The notes beneath the pieces are model-generated. The model did no database searches, was not told the origin of the DNA, and saw nothing but the letters and a program-made list of their open reading frames with translations. Positions 1,526 through 16,478 of a DNA stretch of 34,199 nucleotides are shown here, piece after piece. The stretch comes from Acidimicrobiia bacterium (lineage in GTDB: Bacteria; Actinomycetota; Acidimicrobiia; Spongiisociales; ZC4RG35), in NCBI GenBank assembly GCA_025928935.1, contig JAICNB010000034.1:1-34199 (forward strand). Direction: 5' to 3'. Positions within the stretch are counted from its first letter, which is position 1. Every line of letters begins with the position of its first letter. Position numbers and translations under genes: made by a program.

Positions 1526-2643
1526 CGCTCTACGGTCGATCTGAGGTAACCCATCGCTTCGTCGTACCCCTGCGACGCCTGTTGGACGGTGTAGGCGAGG
1601 ACTCGCATCAGCCACAACCTGAAGGCAAGCGACTCCCAGGAGGGATCGCCGAGAACGAATCGTCCCAACAGGAGCCCATGTACCTCGTACCAGAGGTTCG
1701 CATCCATCCGTCCGAACACCCGGTCCGGGCCGTCCGAAAGGAGCCGACCCGCGGCCTCGTCGGGGAGCGCGGCGACGAGAGATGCCTCGTCCTCTGGCCA
1801 GACCTTGCCCAGCAACCTCCTCGAGCCCTCGATGTCATAGGCGACGATCCGCTTCAGGTCCTCGGGCGGGTCCGATGCCGGGTCGCTCCCGTGTCTGGCG
1901 TCTGAGCCGGGCCCGGGTAAGCCGTCCAGGGAACAGGCGGCGTCGAGACATTCGATGAGCATCTCCTTCAGCTCGTCGAGCGAGCCATACAGGGCATGCC
2001 TTTTGCCATCGGCGACATGATGCTCGTAGAGGCCGATTCCCATGACCGACGTGGTGTAGGTGAGCACCGTGTCGATGCCCCAGTCCGATCGCTCCCGTAC
2101 CATCTCGGAGCCGGCGAGGGACTCGACGGCCGACCTGGTGAGGAGCACCTCCCCACCCAAGGGCTGGTCGAGCCGGGGAAGGAAAGTCCCCGGGAAGATA
2201 CGGGCAAACGCCGGCCTCGTGATCATCCAGGTGATCATGGCGTCGGTGGCAGCGCGGGGAAATCGATGCCGCACCACACCGTATCCGTTGTCGGCGGCGG
2301 CCTCGGCGCCGTCGATCCAGGAGGAATCGAAGTTGGTGATGTCGGCGTCGTAGAAATGGACGCGGTCCCATCCGTCCTCTGCGGCACGTTTGATGGCGGT
2401 GTTCATCGCGTCGCCCTTCCCGGGCCGCAGCTTGCCGAGCCGCTGCTGGAGGAGGACCGAGACCGGTTTGAGGTGGGCCCGGGAGATCTCTCCCGCTCCA
2501 CGGTCGACGGCCTTCTCCCCGGCACCCTCCTCGGCAGCGACGGCCCAGACCTCGTCGATGGCGTCATTGGCTGCGGCGATCGCCATGTTCCCCAGGACCA
2601 GGGATGGGTCTTCCGACTTGAAGGGGAAGACGACCAGGCTCAC
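1498..2643 (-). CDS. mgs: mannosylglycerate synthase (GT78)
   Basis: It transfers mannose from GDP-mannose to D-glycerate, giving the compatible solute alpha-mannosylglycerate in one step; it acts in the cytoplasm. The 381 residues align from memory with the Rhodothermus marinus enzyme (about 397 aa). Shared features are the start MSLVVFPFK, the LRPGKGDAMNTA loop (Lys76), the metal-binding Asp99-Ala-Asp101 (DADIT), RHRFPRAATDAMITWMITR, QPLGGE (160-165), RSDWGID and the GKRH histidine (His216). The R. marinus counterparts of the metal ligands are offset by only one residue. The start is GTG with a -10 hexamer placed for a leaderless transcript. The gene stands alone on this strand. ManC, which makes its sugar donor, is encoded at 18426. 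The family call is secure by motif; activity is inferred. Confidence 0.93.
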   Translation of the reverse strand: MSLVVFPFKSEDPSLVLGNMAIAAANDAIDEVWAVAAEEGAGEKAVDRGAGEISRAHLKPVSVLLQQRLGKLRPGKGDAMNTAIKRAAEDGWDRVHFYDADITNFDSSWIDGAEAAADNGYGVVRHRFPRAATDAMITWMITRPAFARIFPGTFLPRLDQPLGGEVLLTRSAVESLAGSEMVRERSDWGIDTVLTYTTSVMGIGLYEHHVADGKRHALYGSLDELKEMLIECLDAACSLDGLPGPGSDARHGSDPASDPPEDLKRIVAYDIEGSRRLLGKVWPEDEASLVAALPDEAAGRLLSDGPDRVFGRMDANLWYEVHGLLLGRFVLGDPSWESLAFRLWLMRVLAYTVQQASQGYDEAMGYLRSTVERYETTASSC

Positions 2644-2649
2644 CGACAG

Positions 2650-2655
2650 AGACTA
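2650..2655 (-). promoter_or_regulatory. -10 hexamer for mgs (leaderless)
   Basis: TAGTCT on the minus strand, followed by six bases and then the GTG start of mgs, so transcription would begin at the G of GTG. There is no Shine-Dalgarno sequence in front of this GTG. Confidence 0.6.
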
Positions 2656-2806
2656 GGTGTCGGTCCTCCCGGGTCGTTGCGAGGCTGAACCCCTCTACCG
2701 GATAGGTCCGAACCGAAGTGGTTTTCGCCTCTACTGGCCCCGGATCGTCAGCCAATACCTTGAAATCGGGTCGCCGTCCTTTGTCCGTCTGCGCCCGGAG
2801 GGAGAC

Positions 2807-3496
2807 ATGTCACGTCACGTCGAGACTCGATCGGCAGTCGGCGCTTTGTTCGCCGTTTCCCTGTTCCTGGTCGGTTTGCGGCGACTTCCCTTTCCTGGGC
2901 GACTGGGACTGTGATGGCATCGAGACCCCTGGCCTGTACCGCCAATCCGACGGCTTCGTCTATCTGAGGAACTCCAACAGCCAGGGCATCGCCGACATCC
3001 GGTTCCTCTTCGGCAACCCGGGTGACATTCCGATTGCCGGCGACTTCGACGGCGACGGATGCGACACCGTGTCCATCTATCGACCATCCGAGGCTTGGAT
3101 CTACGTGATCAACGAGTTGGGAGCCAAACGACGGAGGATTGGGTGCCGCCGAGCACAGCTACCTATTCGGGGATCCAGGCGACAAGCCCTTTGTCGGTGA
3201 CTTCGACGGGGATGGCACCGACACCGTCGGGCTCCATCGCGAATCCAGCGGCATGGTGTATAACCGAGACAGCAACACCCAGGGCGTTGCCGAAAACACC
3301 TTCGTTTACGGTGATCCCGGCGACCGACTGGTGGCATAGGACTGGAATGGCGACGGGAGACTCCCCGGCGGTGTTCCGGCCGGGCAACCACACCGTCTAC
3401 TTCCGGTTCTTCAACAGCAGCGGCACCGCCGACGCCCGATATATCTGGGGAGCGCCCGGCTGGTTGCCGGTGGCGGGTGATTTCGGCCAGGACTGA
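2807..3496 (+). pseudogene. broken secreted repeat protein with DxDxDG (FG-GAP/VCBS-like) repeats
   Basis: An ATG at 2807 with a good ribosome site (GGAGGGAG) opens a signal-peptide-like stretch. The frame then breaks at about 2875-2890 and the repeat region continues in another frame. Another shift falls near 3120-3140, a TAG stands where a Gly is expected (3337-3339, before DWNGDG), and a further shift falls near 3355. Put together, the pieces contain about four repeats of roughly 47 residues. Each has an acidic loop (DWDCDG, DFDGDG, DFDGDG, DWNGDG), then a Tyr/Phe-Arg strand, RNSN or RDSN, and FGxPGD. Such repeats form beta-propeller-like, calcium-binding extracellular domains. The neighbouring genes are intact, which argues for real decay rather than poor sequence, but read errors are not excluded. 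Confidence 0.75.
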
Positions 3497-3552
3497 CGTC
3501 TCTCGAGAGATGCCTGGGGTCCGGTATGCCCCAACCTGTCCCACGCCGGATC

Positions 3553-3558
3553 TACGCT
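3553..3558 (+). promoter_or_regulatory. -10 hexamer for herA (leaderless)
   Basis: TACGCT lies six bases before the ATG at 3565, so the expected first transcribed base is the A of that ATG. This supports 3565, rather than the in-frame ATG at 3526, as the herA start. Confidence 0.6.
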
Positions 3559-3564
3559 CGCCGA

Positions 3565-5238
3565 ATGGAGGAGATGGTCGGTCGGGTGCTCGGGACCAGC
3601 GATGCCACCCCGCTCGAGTTCTGGGTGGGTGTGGCCGAAGGTGAGTACCTCGAACTGGACGATGTGGTTGCCCTGGAGCGGGTCTTGCCCACCGGCGAGC
3701 TGGTCAAGATCTTCGGCACCATCAGCCAGGTCCGCGCCCGTCATGAGGGGGCGCGATTCGATTCGGATGTCTTCCTGATCGAAGACGGTGTGTTGCCCGC
3801 TGCGGTCCAGGAGGCGGCCCAGGTGACCGCGACCCGGGTCGAGCCCGAGATCTTCGTCCCGCCCCGCCCCGGCCAGCCGGTCCGCCGGGCCCATGACGAG
3901 GAGCGCGACCAGGCCCTGTTCTTCGATCGGATGGATCGGAGGTTCCCGGTCGGGGCGTCACGGAATGGCGAGCCTCTCTTTGCCAACCTCGAGTTCATCA
4001 ACGGGCAGCGTGGGGCGCATGTGAACATCTCCGGGGTCTCGGGCGTGGCCACCAAGACCAGCTACGCCACATTCCTCCTCCACTCGATGTTCACCTCTGG
4101 TGTGCTGGGCTCGGCCGTTGTCAACACCAAGGCACTGATCTTCAACGTCAAGGGTGAGGACCTGCTCCATCTCGATCGGCCCAACACCAGCCTCGATGAC
4201 GACGCCGAGCGTCTGTATCGGGCCCTCGGACTACCTGCACAGCCATTCGGCTCGGTCGGGTTGTTCGCACCGCCCCGTCCCGGATCGGATCGGGCCGTGG
4301 CCGATGTGAGCAGCCGCTCGGACCTCACCTCCTTCTTCTGGACGCTGGCCGAGTTCTGTCATGAGGACCTGATGGTCTTTCTGTTCGCCGACGCCGAGGA
4401 CGAACGAGCCCAGTACACGATGGTGGTCTACAACGTGATGGCGCAGTTGCGCCACGCAGAGGCGGCCGACGGGGGCTCGGTCCGCGTCGAAGGGGAGACG
4501 GTTCGCACCTTCAGGGAGCTGGCCGACCTGATCACTCGAAAGGTGCAGGACGAGGATTCCCGCAACGAGTGGGCCGGGCCTCACATCGGGGCCGGCACCG
4601 TGAATGCCTTCGTTCGCCGGCTCCAGGTGGCGGTGCGTCATGTCGATCGGCTGATCCGGGGTGACATCGCCAACCCGGAACGGCATCGCATCGAGGTTCA
4701 GGGCCATCAGGTGACCGTTGTCGACCTGCACAACCTGAATGATCGGGCGAAGAGGTTCGTGGTCGGTGTGGCGGTGAGACGTGCGTTCGAGGACAAGGAG
4801 CGAGCCGGCCAGTCGGAGGAGCTGCTGTTTCTCGTCTTGGACGAGCTGAACAAGTACGCCCCCAGAGAAGGGACGAGCCCGATCAAGGAGGTCCTCCTCG
4901 ACGTGGCAGAGCGTGGTCGTTCCCTGGGCGTGATCCTGATCGGGGCCCAGCAGACCGCGTCCGAAGTGGAGCGGAGGATCATCGCCAACTCCTCGATCAG
5001 GGTGGTGGGACGGCTCGACTCCGCCGAGGCGTCGCGTGAGGAGTACGGCTTCCTCCCCGCGGCCCAGAGACAGCGGGCCACCATCCTCAAGCCGGGGACA
5101 ATGCTCCTGGCCCAACCCGAGATCCCGGTTCCGTTGGTTCTCGAGTTCCCCTTCCCCGCCTGGGCGACGCGTGCTTCGGAGGCGGCGCCGGCACCGATCG
5201 GAAGCGACGGTCCGATCGACCCGTTCCAGGATCTGTAG
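3565..5238 (+). CDS. herA: HerA-type DNA translocase ATPase
   Basis: HerA is a hexameric, ring-shaped ATPase that moves DNA and, with the nuclease NurA, resects double-strand ends. From the chosen start (557 aa) there is an N-terminal HAS-barrel (VGRVLGTSDATPLEFWVGV, residues about 5-85). The RecA-like core has a P-loop near 155-165 of the form GVSGVATKTS, lacking the usual second Gly before Lys. Its Walker B strand (LLFLVLDELNKYAPR) is near 420-434. It is followed by the sensor region (GVILIGAQQTASEVERRI) and a C-terminal strand (KPGTMLLAQPEIPVPLVLEF). The ATG at 3526 would add 13 residues before the barrel; I prefer 3565 because of the -10 hexamer. The gene leads a four-gene set with sbcD, sbcC and nurA, which argues for repair rather than the HerA-based phage-defence modules. 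Confidence 0.88.
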   Translation: MEEMVGRVLGTSDATPLEFWVGVAEGEYLELDDVVALERVLPTGELVKIFGTISQVRARHEGARFDSDVFLIEDGVLPAAVQEAAQVTATRVEPEIFVPPRPGQPVRRAHDEERDQALFFDRMDRRFPVGASRNGEPLFANLEFINGQRGAHVNISGVSGVATKTSYATFLLHSMFTSGVLGSAVVNTKALIFNVKGEDLLHLDRPNTSLDDDAERLYRALGLPAQPFGSVGLFAPPRPGSDRAVADVSSRSDLTSFFWTLAEFCHEDLMVFLFADAEDERAQYTMVVYNVMAQLRHAEAADGGSVRVEGETVRTFRELADLITRKVQDEDSRNEWAGPHIGAGTVNAFVRRLQVAVRHVDRLIRGDIANPERHRIEVQGHQVTVVDLHNLNDRAKRFVVGVAVRRAFEDKERAGQSEELLFLVLDELNKYAPREGTSPIKEVLLDVAERGRSLGVILIGAQQTASEVERRIIANSSIRVVGRLDSAEASREEYGFLPAAQRQRATILKPGTMLLAQPEIPVPLVLEFPFPAWATRASEAAPAPIGSDGPIDPFQDL

Positions 5239-5243
5239 CGCCC

Positions 5244-5267
5244 GGGGGTCTGGGGGTCGTCCCCCAG
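5244..5267. repeat. palindrome-containing dispersed element, copy 1 of 4
   Basis: Just after the herA stop. The arms CTGGGGG (5250-5256) and CCCCCAG (5261-5267) pair perfectly around TCGT, with GGGGGT on the left flank. No T-run follows. Three more copies occur, at about 10733, 12806 and 33129. Confidence 0.8.
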
Positions 5268-5321
5268 GTTCGACCGTCGGGCGCGATCTCGCATCTCCCC
5301 GAATCTGTCGGTGTCCCGTCC

Positions 5322-5327
5322 TACGAT
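5322..5327 (+). promoter_or_regulatory. -10 hexamer ahead of the sbcD leader ORF
   Basis: TACGAT, with the next ATG (5335) seven bases downstream, so a transcript would begin at or next to that ATG. This suggests that sbcD-sbcC-nurA can be transcribed separately from herA. Confidence 0.5.
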
Positions 5328-5334
5328 CGCCCAC

Positions 5335-5358
5335 ATGGCCCGGTCGGTCCCTCCGTGA
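5335..5358 (+). CDS. leader minigene MARSVPP before sbcD
   Basis: ATG, six further codons, then TGA (5356-5358), which overlaps the GTG start of sbcD (5355-5357) as GTGA. The ATG sits where a leaderless transcript from the TACGAT hexamer would begin. A ribosome starting here would stop exactly on the sbcD start and could restart. There is no Shine-Dalgarno sequence before sbcD itself. Such a short ORF can arise by chance. Confidence 0.4.
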   Translation: MARSVPP

Positions 5359-6485
5359 GGATGCTCCACACCTCCGATTGGCACGTGGGGAGGAAGATCC
5401 GAGGACACTCCCGTGTCGACGAGCATCGGGCCGTCCTCACCGAGATCGTGGGGATCGCCGGGGATGAGCGGGTCGATGTCACGCTCGTCGCCGGGGACCT
5501 CTTCGATGTTTCGTCCCCATCACCGGAGGACGAGGCCATCGTCTATCGGGCCTTGCTCGACCTGGCCGAGGTGGGCCCGGTCGTGGTGGTGGGGGGGAAT
5601 CACGACAGCGCAGCCCGTCTGGAGGCCGTCAAGCCACTCCTCGATCTGGGGAGGATCACCGTCGTAGCCAGGCCGACGAGGCCGGGCGAGGGGGGGTTGA
5701 TCGTCTTCGAGTCGATCGACCTTGCAGTCGCCGCCATCCCCTTCATCTCGCAGCGTGGGATCGTCAAGGCGGCCGAGATCATGGAGCTCGATCCCGACCA
5801 GCATGCCCAGGGCTACGACGAGCGGCTGCGCAGGATCATCGCCGGGCTCACCGAGGGGATGGGGCCCGATCGCGTAAACGTGTTGACCGGCCATCTCACC
5901 GTGTACGGCGCCGAGAGCGGCGGTGGTGAGCGGGATGCCCACGTCTTCGGATACGCCATTCCCCCACAGGCCTTCCCGGGCAGCCTCTCGTACGTCGCAC
6001 TCGGCCATCTCCACCGCCAGCAGCGAGTACCCGCCGCCGCACCGGTCTGGTACAGCGGCTCTCCCATGCAGCTCGACTTCGGCGAGGTGAGTGACGCCAA
6101 AGGCGTCCTGCTGGTCGATGCCGAGCCCTCGATGCCTGCTTCGGTTCGGCCCCTCCCGCTGGTCAACGGGACCAGGCTGGTCCAGCTGAGGGGCACCCTG
6201 GAACAGGTCGTGGCCCGGGCACCCGAGGTCGAGGGCGCCTATGTGAAGATCCTCCTGGACGAGAAGGCGCGAGCCGGGCTGAACGAGGAGGTCCGTGAGG
6301 CGATACCCGGAGCTGTGGATGTCATCGTCGTTCGCCCCGAGGAGCGGGCGAAACGTGACGAGGCGACACGATCGGGGCGATCCCCGGTCGAGCTGTTCCA
6401 GAGCTATCTCACCACCCGTGGAGTCGATGACTCCGAGGTGGTCGAATTGTTCCGCGAGTTGGAGCAAGAGGTGCTCTCCGGATGA
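5355..6485 (+). CDS. sbcD: SbcD / Mre11-type exonuclease subunit
   Basis: This is the metal-dependent nuclease half of the SbcCD (Mre11-Rad50) complex, which trims DNA ends and opens hairpins. The 376 residues carry all the calcineurin-like phosphoesterase motifs in order: HTSDWHVGR (5-13), LVAGDLFD (45-52), GGNHDS (near 80), LTGHLTV (near 175) and ALGHLHRQ (near 216). A C-terminal capping region of about 130 residues follows. The GTG at 5355 gives the family-typical start M-R-M-L-H-T-S-D-W, so I prefer it to the ATG at 5361. The stop overlaps the sbcC start as ATGA, so the two subunits are translationally coupled. Length is normal for SbcD. Confidence 0.95.
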   Translation: MRMLHTSDWHVGRKIRGHSRVDEHRAVLTEIVGIAGDERVDVTLVAGDLFDVSSPSPEDEAIVYRALLDLAEVGPVVVVGGNHDSAARLEAVKPLLDLGRITVVARPTRPGEGGLIVFESIDLAVAAIPFISQRGIVKAAEIMELDPDQHAQGYDERLRRIIAGLTEGMGPDRVNVLTGHLTVYGAESGGGERDAHVFGYAIPPQAFPGSLSYVALGHLHRQQRVPAAAPVWYSGSPMQLDFGEVSDAKGVLLVDAEPSMPASVRPLPLVNGTRLVQLRGTLEQVVARAPEVEGAYVKILLDEKARAGLNEEVREAIPGAVDVIVVRPEERAKRDEATRSGRSPVELFQSYLTTRGVDDSEVVELFRELEQEVLSG

Positions 6486-8812
6486 GGCCGCGGCACCTCG
6501 TCATGGAGGGATTCCTCGCCTACCGCCGGCGGATCGAGGTCGACTTCAGCGATGCCGACCTTTTCGTGCTCTCGGGCCCCACCGGTGCAGGGAAGTCGAG
6601 TGTGATCGACGGGATGACGTTTGCCCTCTACGGCTCGATCCCCCGTCTGGGGAAGGGCTCGGTGGCGCCGCTCATCTCCGCCCAATCCGATCGGGCCCGC
6701 GTTTCGTTCAGCTTCACGGTGGGCGACGAGACCTATACCGCCGCACGCATGTTGGAGCGTCAGGGGGCCGGGGCGAGCACCAAGGAGGCCAGGCTGCAGC
6801 GGGGCGAGGAGGAAGTGGTCCTGGCCGGCACAGCAGACGAGGTGACGGCGGAGGTGACGAATCTATTGGGGCTCAGCTACGAGCACTTCGTCAAGGCCGT
6901 TGTCCTGCCGCAGGGGGCCTTTGCAGACTTCCTCACCGACAGGCCGAAGGACCGGCAGGCACTTCTCGGAGAGCTGCTCGACATGGGTCTCTACGAGGAG
7001 GTCATGCAGCTTGCCAACGTCCGGGCCAGGCTCGCCGATGGCCGGGCGAAGACGGTGGTGGAGAGCCTGGCCAAGCTTGAGGTGGCGACTGAAGCTCAGC
7101 TAGAAGGGGCGCGTGCGAGGCTGGAGGACCTGGTGGGGGCGAGCAGGGAGCTCCCCGACCGGCTCGAGATGCTGGAGAATCTCGACGCCGTCTGTCGGAA
7201 GGCGCGGGAGGCCCACACCGCCGTGGTCGGGAGCCTGGATCGTCTACGCGCCATCCAGATCCCTGGTGACCTCGAGACGTTGGGGGAGGACAGGAAGGCG
7301 GCCGGCGAGGCCATGACGATCGCTCAGACCAGGCTCTCTGCCACCCTCGAGGAGCGGAGAGGTCTTCAGGAGCGAGCGGCTGCGCTGCCCGCACTCGCCC
7401 GACTCGAGTCCCTCCAAGAGGACCAGGTGAAACGCGGCGAGCTGGCCGATCGTCTGGCCGCCCTCGACCTGGCAGCCCTGGCTGCGGAGGTGGAGGCGGC
7501 CGCCACGGCCCATGACCAGGCTCGCATCGCCCTGGACGAGGCCAGGGTCGCCCATGCCGCCCAGGACCTGCGCCACGGTCTGTCGATGGGCGACCCCTGC
7601 CCGGTGTGTGGGGGCGTCTTCGGCACCGTCGATGAGAGCGAGCGTGAGGTTCACGGATCCATCGAGTCGCTCCGCGAGGAGCTGAATCGAGTCGAGGAGC
7701 GGGCCAACCACGCCCGCGGGGCGCTCAAGGGAGCCGAGGGCGAGGCCAAGCAGATCGATCGTCAGCTGGTCGAGGTGACCGCCCGACTCGAGGCGGCGCC
7801 ATCCTCCGAGGCGATCGAAGAGATGATCGAGACGGCCCGTTCATTGGATGAGGCACGGCTGGCCAACGAGAAGGCGGTGGAGGCGGCGCAGGAGGAGGTG
7901 GAGGCGGCCCGGCTCATCGTCGTCGGGCTCGAGGAACGAGACGTCGGTCTCGGTGAGGCGCTGCTCGCGGCCCGCGACCGGGTCGCAGCCGAGGAGCCGC
8001 CCCTGCCCGGCAAGGACCCGATCGAGTCATGGCACAGGTTCGACGAATGGCTGATCGGGAAGATGGCCGATCGGTCGGGAGAGTTGGCTTCATTGGAGAG
8101 GGCGCGTGAGGAGGCCGATGAGGCCCTTGGTGCGGCAGTCGGAGAGCAGCGGGACTGGCTGGAGGGGCTCGGCATCGCGTTCACCGATTCGCCCGGCACG
8201 GATCTGGCCCTGGCCGAGGCAGGGCAGCGGGCCGCCATCGACGAGATGGAGAAGACCATCACTCACGCCTCAGAGCTGGAAGACGAGCTGGCGCTGGAAC
8301 AGTCACGGGCCCGGGTCGCCTCGGCGCTGGGGAACCATCTCAAGTCGAACAACTTCGAGGCCTGGCTCTTGGAGGAGGCGATGGATGTCCTGATCGACGG
8401 GGCCAACGGGCTCCTCGACGACCTCTCCGGCGGCGCCTACTCGCTGAAGATGACGAGGGGGCAATTCGAGGTCATCGACCACCGCAACGCCGAGCTGACC
8501 AGGACCACCCGGTCCCTGTCCGGTGGAGAGACCTTCCTGGTGTCGCTCTCGCTCGCCTTGTCCATGGCCGACCAGCTGGCCCTGATCACCGGCGTCTCCT
8601 CACGTCTCGAATCGGTGTTCCTCGACGAGGGTTTCGGATCGCTCGATCAAGAGTCGCTCGATGTGGTGGCGTCCGTGCTCGACGAGCTTGTCGGTCGCGG
8701 GCGCACGGTCGGCATAGTCACCCACGTGCGGGAGCTCGCCGACCGCTTCCCGGTCCGATTCGAGGTCACCAAGGGCTCGGAGACGGCCTCGATCGCCAGG
8801 TTGGAGACATGA
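6482..8812 (+). CDS. sbcC: SbcC / Rad50-type SMC ATPase
   Basis: This is the ATPase and coiled-coil partner of SbcD; ATP binding closes the head on DNA and controls the nuclease. The 776 residues show a Walker A (GPTGAGKSS, near 33-41), a first Glu/Ala-rich coiled coil, the zinc hook C373-P-V-C376, a second coiled coil, the ABC signature (SLSGGETF, near 680) and Walker B (VFLDEGFGSLD, near 711). The arms are short: bacterial SbcC usually exceeds 1000 residues, so the reach of this complex should be smaller. The start overlaps the sbcD stop (ATGA) and the stop overlaps the nurA start (ATGA). Confidence 0.94.
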   Translation: MRPRHLVMEGFLAYRRRIEVDFSDADLFVLSGPTGAGKSSVIDGMTFALYGSIPRLGKGSVAPLISAQSDRARVSFSFTVGDETYTAARMLERQGAGASTKEARLQRGEEEVVLAGTADEVTAEVTNLLGLSYEHFVKAVVLPQGAFADFLTDRPKDRQALLGELLDMGLYEEVMQLANVRARLADGRAKTVVESLAKLEVATEAQLEGARARLEDLVGASRELPDRLEMLENLDAVCRKAREAHTAVVGSLDRLRAIQIPGDLETLGEDRKAAGEAMTIAQTRLSATLEERRGLQERAAALPALARLESLQEDQVKRGELADRLAALDLAALAAEVEAAATAHDQARIALDEARVAHAAQDLRHGLSMGDPCPVCGGVFGTVDESEREVHGSIESLREELNRVEERANHARGALKGAEGEAKQIDRQLVEVTARLEAAPSSEAIEEMIETARSLDEARLANEKAVEAAQEEVEAARLIVVGLEERDVGLGEALLAARDRVAAEEPPLPGKDPIESWHRFDEWLIGKMADRSGELASLERAREEADEALGAAVGEQRDWLEGLGIAFTDSPGTDLALAEAGQRAAIDEMEKTITHASELEDELALEQSRARVASALGNHLKSNNFEAWLLEEAMDVLIDGANGLLDDLSGGAYSLKMTRGQFEVIDHRNAELTRTTRSLSGGETFLVSLSLALSMADQLALITGVSSRLESVFLDEGFGSLDQESLDVVASVLDELVGRGRTVGIVTHVRELADRFPVRFEVTKGSETASIARLET

Positions 8813-9714
8813 GGTTCACGGTGGAGGCATGGGACCCCGACTATGGGGCGCCGTCGGATCCCGATTTGGCCGATGCCACCGAGAACGTCGATGTCTCGGT
8901 CGAGCTGGCGCCCGAGCAGTGGCACCCGATCCTTCCCGAAGCCGTTCCCGCCCCGGACATCTTGTTCGTGGACGGTGTGCGCCGGGTGGACGCCAATCTG
9001 TGGATCGAGCACGAGGGTCGGTTCCCCAGCTTCGGCCTGGCGGCCACCTTCGCCGCCGGAGCGGTGCGGTGCAACAGCGAGGCCGTGGTGGTGGCGGCAG
9101 AGGTGAGACGCGGCGTGTTCACCGGCGCCGACGCCGACCCGGTGGAGACAAATATCGGGACCTATCAGGTCATGAGCACGAAAGGATCGACTCCGGAGGA
9201 GCTCTGGCTGGGCATCCAACAGCGGATGGGGGACCTGGAGGGTGGCATAGCCGAGCTACATGCCGACGTGGCCCTGATGGTGGTGGACGGGCCTCTGTCC
9301 CATCGACGTCACGTCGAGGGAGCGGTCGGGTATGTGAAGACACAGCACGTCCAATATCTCCCCGACGACCTGCGGGCCACACTGGGGGCCCTCCCCGTGG
9401 GGCATCGAACGCCGCTCTTCCTCACCACGACCTCTTGGAGCAGGTTCTCCTGGTATCTGCGCCTCGCCAACGGCACCGGTCCGGCAGGGGGGCTGGTGCG
9501 CTGCGAGGTCCAGGCCGACATGAGCGTGGCCGAGGCAATGCGGCGGGCGAATCTGGTCACGGCTTCGCTGCCCAGGTATGCCTCGGCCCGGCACAAGGAC
9601 CCCCGGGCCCCCCAGAACCTCTACCCGATCGGAGGCCTCGAACGCGAGTTACGCCGGCGGCTAGGTGACCGGGACCTTGCCATCAGGGCCCTGCGATTGG
9701 CTGCGGCAGCTTGA
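8809..9714 (+). CDS. nurA: NurA-type nuclease
   Basis: NurA is a 5'-3' nuclease of RNase H-like fold that sits on HerA and degrades one strand during end resection. The 301 residues show the family layout. A hydrophobic strand ends in a catalytic Asp (ILFVDG, Asp55). About 100 residues on, a second one does the same (ALMVVDGPL, Asp160), then GYVKTQ with Lys177. The C-terminus has a His-containing stretch (SARHKDPRAPQNLYPI) and a YPIGGLE-type end. The match is by motif and position rather than by strong overall identity. The context (herA, sbcD and sbcC directly upstream, ATGA overlap with sbcC) makes the call firm. It ends 22 bases before the end of a convergent transporter gene. Confidence 0.85.
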   Translation: MRFTVEAWDPDYGAPSDPDLADATENVDVSVELAPEQWHPILPEAVPAPDILFVDGVRRVDANLWIEHEGRFPSFGLAATFAAGAVRCNSEAVVVAAEVRRGVFTGADADPVETNIGTYQVMSTKGSTPEELWLGIQQRMGDLEGGIAELHADVALMVVDGPLSHRRHVEGAVGYVKTQHVQYLPDDLRATLGALPVGHRTPLFLTTTSWSRFSWYLRLANGTGPAGGLVRCEVQADMSVAEAMRRANLVTASLPRYASARHKDPRAPQNLYPIGGLERELRRRLGDRDLAIRALRLAAAA

Positions 9715-13652: not shown

Positions 13653-16478
13653 ATGCCCAACCCCAACGAGCGCTTCGCCGACCGACACATAGGTCCCGGC
13701 CCCGACGACATCGACAAGATGCTCGCCACCGTCGGTGCCGCCTCACTCGATGACCTGGTCACCGAGACCATCCCCGCCGCGATCATCGACACCGATCTGG
13801 ATCTCCCAGTTGCCCTCTCCGAAGGGGATACGATCGCCCGGCTCCGAGATCTCGCCTCGAAGAACGTCGTCATGACTTCTCTCATCGGTCTCGGCTACCA
13901 CGACACCATCACGCCGCCAGTGATCCAGCGAAATGTCCTGGAGAGCCCCGCCTGGTACACCGCCTACACCCCATATCAACCCGAGATCTCCCAGGGGCGG
14001 CTCGAGGCGCTCCTCAACTTCCAGACGATGGTCTCCGACCTGACCGGCTTCGATATAGCCAACGCTTCCTTGCTCGACGAGGCGACCGCCGCTGCCGAGG
14101 CGATGGCGATGTGTCGGCGACTGGCCAAGGGGGACAGGCCTGTGTTCTACGTCGACGACGACTGCCATCTCCCCACCAACGAGGTGGTCAGGACCCGGGC
14201 GGAGGCCGCGGGCGTAGAGGTACGCCTGATCTCGGACGGGTTCGAAGCAGACTCGGCCTTCGGGCTGCTCCTCCAGTATCCCGGTTCGTCCGGTGAGGTC
14301 GCCGACCACCGCTCGCTCGTCGAGGAGGCCAAGGCGTCGGGTGTGATGGTGGCGGTGGCCACCGACCTCCTCGCCCTCACCCTGCTGAGCCCCCCAGGCG
14401 AGTGGGGTGCGGACATCGCGGTCGGATCGGCGCAGAGGTTCGGCGTGCCGCTCGGTTACGGCGGTCCACATCCGGGGTTCATCGCCACCCGGGAGGCACA
14501 TGTGCGCGCCCTTCCCGGACGGTTGGTCGGAGTCTCCCACGACACATCGGGGCGCGTCGCATATCGGCTCGCTCTGCAGACGCGTGAACAGCACATAAGG
14601 AGGGAGAAGGCGACCTCCAACGTCTGCACCGCCCAGGTGCTGCTGGCTGTCATCGCCGGCTTCTATGCCTGCTGGCACGGCCCGGAAGGACTGATCGACA
14701 TCGCCAGGGAGACCCACCGCCTGGCGACGACAGCCGCTGCGTCGTTGAAGGCGAGCGGCATCGAGGTGGTAAACCGGTCCTGGTTCGACACCATCACGGT
14801 GGCGACACCGGGCCGGGCGGCGGAGGTGATCGAAGCCGCGGTCGAACTGGGGATCAACCTCGGGGCCGTCGACCAGGACCACGTGCGGATCGCGTTCGAC
14901 GAGACCACCACCGACGAGGTCGTGGCCGACGCTCTCCGGGCCTTCGGTGTGGAGAGCGCCGGTGATGCCCCCACAGGTGGGGTCCCGGACGGCCTGGAGC
15001 GCCGCTCCGAGTTCATGACCCATCCGGTGTTCCGGCTTCACCGCTCCGAGCACGCGATGCTCCGATATCTGCGGCGTCTGGCCGACCGCGACCTCGCCTT
15101 GGACCGGAGCATGATCCCCTTGGGCTCCTGCACCATGAAGCTGAACGCCACCACCGAGATGATCCCGATCACGTGGCCGGAGTTCTCGGCGATCCATCCC
15201 TACGCCCCGGCCGATCAGACCGCCGGTTATCGCGAGCTAATCGACGAGTTGGCCGACGCACTGTGCCGGATCACCGGATATGACGCGGTTTCGCTCCAGC
15301 CGAACGCCGGGTCCCAGGGGGAGCTGGCAGGTCTGCTCGCCATCCGCGCCTATCACCGGTCTCTGGGACAGGGGCACCGCGATATCTGCCTCATCCCCTC
15401 CTCCGCCCACGGCACCAACGCCGCATCTGCGGTGATGGCAGGCATGCGAGTGGTGGTCGTGGCCACAGACGACTCCGGCAATATCGACCTGGCCGATCTC
15501 GAGTCCAAGGCCGGCGAGCACTCCGACCGGCTGGCTGCGGCGATGATCACTTACCCATCCACGCATGGGGTGTTCGAACAAGACGTCCGGCGCCTCATCG
15601 ACATCGTCCACCTGAACGGGGGCCAGGTGTATGTGGACGGCGCCAACCTCAATGCGATGGTCGGTCTGGCCAAGCCAGGCGGGTTCGGCGCCGACGTCGG
15701 ACATCTCAATCTGCACAAGACCTTCACCATTCCCCACGGCGGGGGCGGCCCGGGAGTTGGGCCGGTCGGCGTCCGTGCCCATCTGGCCCCCTATCTCCCC
15801 AACCACCCTCTCAACGATGAGGCGGGCCCCGAGACAGGGCTCGGGCCGATCGCCGGCGCACCGTACGGATCTGCCGGCATCCTCCCCATCCCCTACGCCT
15901 ATGTCCGGCTCATGGGCGCCGATGGGCTGCGGGCGGCCAGCAAGGTGGCGATCCTCTCGGCCAACTACCTGGCTCGGCGGCTCGACCCCTATTTCCCCGT
16001 CCTCTACACAGGGAGCAACGGCCGCGTGGCTCACGAGTGCATCATCGACCTTCGGCCGACCACCAAGGCGACCGGCATAACCGCCGAGGACGTCGCGAAA
16101 CGCCTCGCCGACTACGGGTTCCATGCCCCGACCCTCTCCTTCCCTGTGGCCGGCACGCTGATGATCGAGCCGACCGAGTCGGAGAGTCTCGAGGAGCTCG
16201 ACCGGTTCGTCGAAGCGATGATCGGCATTCACGGCGAGGTGTCGCGTGTCGAAACGGGAGAGTGGCCCTCCGACGACAATCCGCTGCGCAACGCCCCGCA
16301 TAGCGCAGAGCAGGTGGCGGGCGATGACTGGCCCCATCCCTATTCGCGGGAGGCGGCCGCCTTTCCGGTGGGCACGCTGCGAAGTGACAAGTACTGGCCG
16401 CCGGTGAGCCGAATCGACGGTCCTGGCGGTGACCGCAACCTCGTTTGCGCCTGCCCGCCTCTGGACGCCTACGCTTGA
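13653..16478 (+). CDS. gcvP: glycine dehydrogenase (decarboxylating), P-protein
   Basis: It decarboxylates glycine with pyridoxal phosphate and passes the aminomethyl group to the lipoyl H-protein of the glycine cleavage system. The 941 residues are the long single-chain form, equal to the two subunits found separately in other bacteria. The N-terminal half starts with [14 protein letters not shown]. The C-terminal half carries SFPLGSC-like [26 protein letters not shown] and the PLP lysine (Lys689, in [17 protein letters not shown]). It ends with the usual NPLRNAPHS and [19 protein letters not shown]. No gcvT, gcvH or lpd gene is in the window. No glycine riboswitch is visible upstream. Confidence 0.97.

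Follow-up and report, generated by a model that had tools for sequence, protein, structure and literature searches.

A herA-sbcD-sbcC-nurA gene cluster with bacterial-type HerA and NurA in an acidimicrobiial actinobacterium that also encodes AdnAB

The contig analyzed here, treated as one window of 34,199 nucleotides, belongs to an acidimicrobiial MAG, that is, to an uncultured actinobacterium, and carries neighboring genes for a HerA-type translocase, SbcD, SbcC, and a NurA-type nuclease. The same kind of gene set is known from Sulfolobus islandicus, where the operon genes are named herA, mre11, rad50, and nurA and all four are essential (PMC4351679), and Sulfolobus Mre11 and Rad50 bind HerA directly (PMC2288612). 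The locus raises the question of whether this lineage has an archaeal-style end-resection machine, as the initial annotation of the DNA proposed, and whether such a machine would act alongside or in place of AddAB, RecBCD, or AdnAB.

Composition and identity of the four genes

The genes of the cluster are as follows.

herA: 3526-5238, plus strand; HerA/FtsK-superfamily hexameric translocase of the bacterial (Deinococcus) type, 488 bits and 3.6e-145 to D. radiodurans HerA (7f6d_B)
sbcD: 5355-6485, plus strand, GTG start; Mre11-type metallophosphoesterase nuclease, 170.6 bits to TIGR00619
sbcC: 6482-8812, plus strand; Rad50-type ABC ATPase, short (776 aa), with a CPVC zinc-hook motif
nurA: 8809-9714, plus strand; bacterial-type NurA nuclease with an RNase H-like fold, 3.8e-18 to D. 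radiodurans NurA (DrNurA, 7f6d_H)

All four genes are adjacent on one strand, in an arrangement that is conserved. A spacing of 116 nt separates herA from sbcD, and the sbcD/sbcC and sbcC/nurA junctions are ATGA overlaps, which suggests that sbcD, sbcC, and nurA are co-transcribed. The four identities, the operon-like layout, and both overlaps described in the initial annotation were thus recovered, and every motif that it quoted is present in the window proteins and conserved among relatives. Its placement of the herA start at position 3553 did not hold, as the codon there is TAC and not a start codon. The herA start is uncertain; since homologues align from residues 12-18, the ATG at 3565 is the likelier choice.

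In a sequence search against PDB chains, the window HerA aligned to D. radiodurans HerA (DrHerA) over residues 15-553 with 488 bits, far more than any archaeal or anti-phage HerA model gave. The Pfam HAS-barrel domain (PF09378) was found below threshold (16.5 versus a cut-off of 25.2). Across 37 relatives there is no variation at Walker A K177, the acidic residue D212, or the Walker B pair D439/E440, and these positions align to K175, D220, D487, and E488 of DrHerA, named in PMC9960219. From the DrHerA interface acids D78, E80, and D81, D78 alone is kept, as D81 of the window HerA.

SbcD passed the TIGR00619 cut-off of 77.65 bits, and its residues D8, H10, D48, N82-H83-D84, H180, H218, and H220 are invariant across 25 relatives. 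For SbcC, the Pfam models SbcC_Walker_B (42.6 bits, cut-off 27) and AAA_23 were both above cut-off, and the best NCBIfam match was TIGR00618 (5.5e-69). The latter reached 233 bits and not the full-length cut-off of 478.5, a shortfall for which the short coiled coil would plausibly account. In 28 relatives, Walker A K38, the hook residues C373 and C376 with the Pro between them, the SGGE signature, and Walker B D715/E716 are invariant, and hook residue V375 is kept at 90% or more.

NurA was the least straightforward assignment. The Pfam NurA model (PF09376) gave 15.8 bits on the window protein against a cut-off of 21, and searching the whole genome with PF09376 returned no match, so that the family-profile check foreseen for this gene fell short at the level of Pfam. 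The NurA identity itself stood, by comparison with DrNurA. Sequence searches matched the window protein to DrNurA and, at 1.3e-5, to T. maritima TM1739 (1zup). Its AlphaFold model (pLDDT 89.3) gave as best PDB matches in a fold search 7f6d_G (E 1.6e-18, TM 0.72) and 1zup (E 1.2e-16), and archaeal NurA was absent from the 50 fold matches listed. Because sequence and fold comparisons both place the protein with NurA, we regard the assignment as settled; judged by the sequence and the predicted model, the Pfam shortfall is one of database threshold or low sensitivity and not of a different gene identity.

The initial annotation had singled out Asp55 and Asp160, and a lack of conservation at these positions among close homologues had been set beforehand as grounds for rejecting the NurA call. 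Both residues are invariant in 46 relatives and align to Asp residues of DrNurA, leaving the call in place. W8 is invariant in the same relatives; a functionally important W8 lies near the pin motif of D. radiodurans NurA (PMC9960219), and the two tryptophans are likened here by residue number, not by formal alignment. By homology, a HerA-dependent 5′-3′ nuclease activity is predicted for the window NurA. As a side observation, the Pfam NurA model misses the NurA branch of these actinobacteria, and the supposed rarity of bacterial NurA may in part reflect this gap.

By sequence, then, the window HerA and NurA are of the bacterial Deinococcus/Thermotoga type, and the description of the set as archaeal-style is not supported for these two proteins. 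The likeness to the Sulfolobus operon lies in the four functions, the shared direction, and the listed gene order; unlike that operon, the window encodes HerA and NurA of bacterial type, and its host also has AdnAB. The D. radiodurans HerA-NurA complex (7F6D) is alike in its proteins, with a near full-length match for HerA, the best match for NurA in both sequence and fold, and aligned catalytic residues. The window pair differs from it in being linked to sbcD-sbcC, in keeping one of the three DrHerA interface acids, and in NurA length (301 aa versus 349 in D. radiodurans).

Distribution, linkage, and gene order

A scan of genome contigs yielded 80 named HerA loci, mainly from Acidimicrobiia and other Actinomycetota, with further loci in Nitriliruptorales, Micromonosporaceae, Gemmatimonadota, Chloroflexota, and a Truepera (Trueperaceae) MAG. 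MAGs that carry the database label Gammaproteobacteria are also among them, one of which nests within Gemmatimonadota in the HerA tree. Among the Micromonosporaceae, the cluster is carried by genera such as Rugosimonospora and Actinorhabdospora. Whether genomes keep all four genes together, a check suggested at the outset, can be answered from these loci: 59 of the 80 hold all four in one direction, and 15 of the remainder are cut by a contig end. In 40 of the 59 complete loci, sbcC and nurA overlap by 1 or 4 nt.

We then consider a phylum sample of 396 Actinomycetota genomes that are at least 90% complete. HerA was found in 65, NurA in 66, and both in 63; the three NurA-only genomes have weak, distant matches, and two genomes are HerA-only. 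In 57 genomes, herA and nurA share a contig, and sbcC lies with them in 55. The rarity of SbcCD linked to HerA-NurA that had been implied at first is therefore not what is seen in Actinomycetota. One of the two pairs scored as lacking sbcC comes from a genome (G412) that nonetheless carries two full clusters; it was scored in this way because the pairing chose a pair whose sbcC fell below the listing threshold. A further 20 clusters, drawn from genomes already known to carry herA and nurA, all hold the four genes (20/20), in two orders.

These orders are herA-sbcD-sbcC-nurA, found in 26 genomes, and nurA-herA-sbcD-sbcC, found in 29. On the HerA tree, a single change of gene order suffices, with a support of 67/97, a midpoint root, and some long branches that meet. 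The two clusters of G412 (L117 and L118) are both complete, one in each order, with divergent HerA proteins.

In the host order (138 genomes), HerA and NurA are both present in 94 genomes and both absent from 38; some of the six mismatches stem from hits that are short or cut, and the Fisher value for these counts takes no account of relatedness. Within the host family, the operon is found in 28 of 34 genomes and is absent almost only from one genus. In that genus, five genomes (G106 and G108-G111) lack the whole system and one (G107) has a divergent one, with HerA at 62% and NurA at 44% identity and a longer SbcC reading frame, which suggests loss followed by replacement by transfer.

The linkage tolerates distance. 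Some relatives have herA set apart from sbcD by 1.5 to ∼6 kb of unrelated genes, and in some Actinomycetota the distance from herA to nurA reaches 18 kb. Given such separations, the genes need not share one transcript. A further partner recurring in the gaps after herA was considered and rejected, as the intervening genes differ from one gapped locus to the next and include glutamine synthetases, an AlkZ-like glycosylase, a desaturase, and a pyridine-nucleotide oxidoreductase.

The four-gene kind itself is already known. In Oceanithermus profundus, sbcD and sbcC lie downstream of hepA, the bacterial HerA homologue, and the linkage was noted there (PMC5448004); that layout fits the second gene order, whereas nurA comes last in the window, and in place of this single case the arrangement now appears widespread in actinobacteria. 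Thermus, by comparison, has HerA-NurA without linked SbcCD (PMC5448004). Actinobacterial HerA/NurA have been mentioned (PMC8708640), and a paper describing the actinobacterial four-gene cluster was not found in the open-access literature. What is new is the breadth, the near-obligate linkage, the two gene orders, and the coexistence with AdnAB. According to a 2023 structural paper, NurA-HerA is confined among bacteria to a few groups without RecBCD, of which Deinococcus-Thermus is an example (PMC9960219). This contrasts with our sample, in which about one in six Actinomycetota (65/396) has HerA-NurA, nearly always with SbcCD.

AdnAB in the same genome

When the host genome was searched for another end-resection enzyme, as had been proposed with the initial annotation, a full adnA-adnB tandem was found.

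adnA-adnB: contig C54, L100:5353-8304 and 2291-5356, minus strand; two adjacent, overlapping genes of the same genome

Each of the two genes encodes both a UvrD helicase and a PDDEXK nuclease domain, as befits AdnAB. Their PDB matches include 6ppj, 6ppr, 6ppu, and 7sjr, which we take to be M. smegmatis AdnAB, with chain A matched by one gene and chain B by the other. Like the proposed role of the operon, that of mycobacterial AdnAB is DNA-end processing by a helicase-nuclease, here in the same genome; the proteins are unrelated and are encoded on a separate contig. Across the host order, AdnB is present in 133 of 138 genomes, comprising 93 of 97 that bear HerA and 40 of 41 that lack it.

Because its own genome has adnAB, and because AdnB is near-universal in the order with or without HerA, we place the operon beside AdnAB. 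Of the two roles first offered, alongside or in place of AddAB, RecBCD, or AdnAB, the former fits this coexistence and the latter is not supported. That the operon has replaced these enzymes as the main end-resection machine of the lineage is scarcely credible given the AdnB counts across the order, and for the window genome it is contradicted by the tandem and its matches to AdnAB structures. The one point in its favor is a pair of genomes of a single genus in the host order (G008 and G009) that have HerA-SbcC-NurA, no AdnB match, and one PDDEXK_1 gene each, unlike their congeners G010 and G012. These two genomes could represent a natural loss of AdnAB or an assembly gap.

Proposed function and its alternatives

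The operon is probably a vertically kept housekeeping set for the processing of double-strand ends, in which a bacterial-type HerA-NurA and SbcCD work alongside AdnAB. This reading draws support from the four identities, the intact motifs, the near-obligate co-occurrence and linkage, the stable surroundings, and the coexistence with AdnAB; the initial interpretation as a whole is partly supported. By analogy with characterized homologues, SbcCD (Rad50-Mre11) would recognize and clip DNA ends, blocked and hairpin ones among them. HerA, as a hexamer, would load on the duplex and pump it into dimeric NurA; there the strands would be split and the 5′ strand preferentially degraded to leave a 3′ tail for RecA, a scheme based on D. 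radiodurans NurA-HerA (PMC9960219). The operon may work beside AdnAB, perhaps taking ends onto which AdnAB is unable to load. Contact between SbcCD and HerA in bacteria would follow the Sulfolobus precedent.

End resection is the step that we infer from sequence, and some published data weigh against it. T. kodakarensis HerA-NurA was judged hard to reconcile with 3′-tail formation, and antiviral degradation was proposed for it (PMC12977600). Mutants of D. radiodurans or T. thermophilus show damage resistance that is modestly changed or improved (cited in PMC9960219). For the operon reading as a whole, the gapped loci and the two DrHerA interface acids that are not kept also count against it. 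Resection of the 5′ strand versus degradation of both strands is accordingly disputed (PMC12977600).

If both strands of unprotected ends were degraded, the four proteins could serve as a nucleolytic defense against phage or plasmid DNA and not in recombination. The T. kodakarensis data favor such degradation, and known defense systems pair HerA with Sir2 or DUF4297 nucleases (PMC12977600). PADLOC returned weak HerA and Mads matches. TdpAB (8wfd), a phosphorothioate-linked defense complex, was matched weakly in structure as well. Against this, the best PADLOC HerA match, at 40.6 bits, lies far below the DrHerA match, the housekeeping neighbors gpsA and gcvP are stable, and an operon absent almost only from one genus of its family follows a vertical pattern unlike that of a defense island. 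Synteny and the vertical presence pattern are more in keeping with a housekeeping locus passed on by descent than with a mobile defense island, an origin that they disfavor, and we consider a defensive role unlikely.

HerA-NurA and SbcCD could also be separate pathways whose genes are neighbors through co-regulation after DNA damage. The herA genes that lie several kb from sbcDC-nurA in several relatives, and the unlinked HerA-NurA of Thermus (PMC5448004), would fit this arrangement. We find it improbable, and a little more so than defense, in that the linkage outlasts rearrangement between the two orders, spans a wide phylogenetic range, and goes with an almost all-or-none presence of HerA and NurA in the host order.

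Returning to end processing alongside AdnAB, a broader version can be put forward tentatively. Several bacterial phyla might possess a dedicated SbcCD-HerA-NurA pathway, its parts in physical contact like those of Sulfolobus, running parallel to AdnAB with its own class of blocked or hairpin ends, that has gone largely unstudied partly through the Pfam NurA miss. The disputed function of HerA-NurA becomes testable in culturable actinobacteria such as the Micromonosporaceae relatives, where the usual resection enzyme could be taken out on its own.

As for the surroundings of the operon, downstream gpsA and/or EamA-transporter and pyridoxamine-oxidase-like genes are common to several relatives. 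A glycine dehydrogenase gene (gcvP, window positions 13653-16478) also lies near the operon. In Thermus, the glycine-cleavage gene gcvT is found just downstream of nurA-hepA (PMC5448004), and the resemblance is probably a coincidence.
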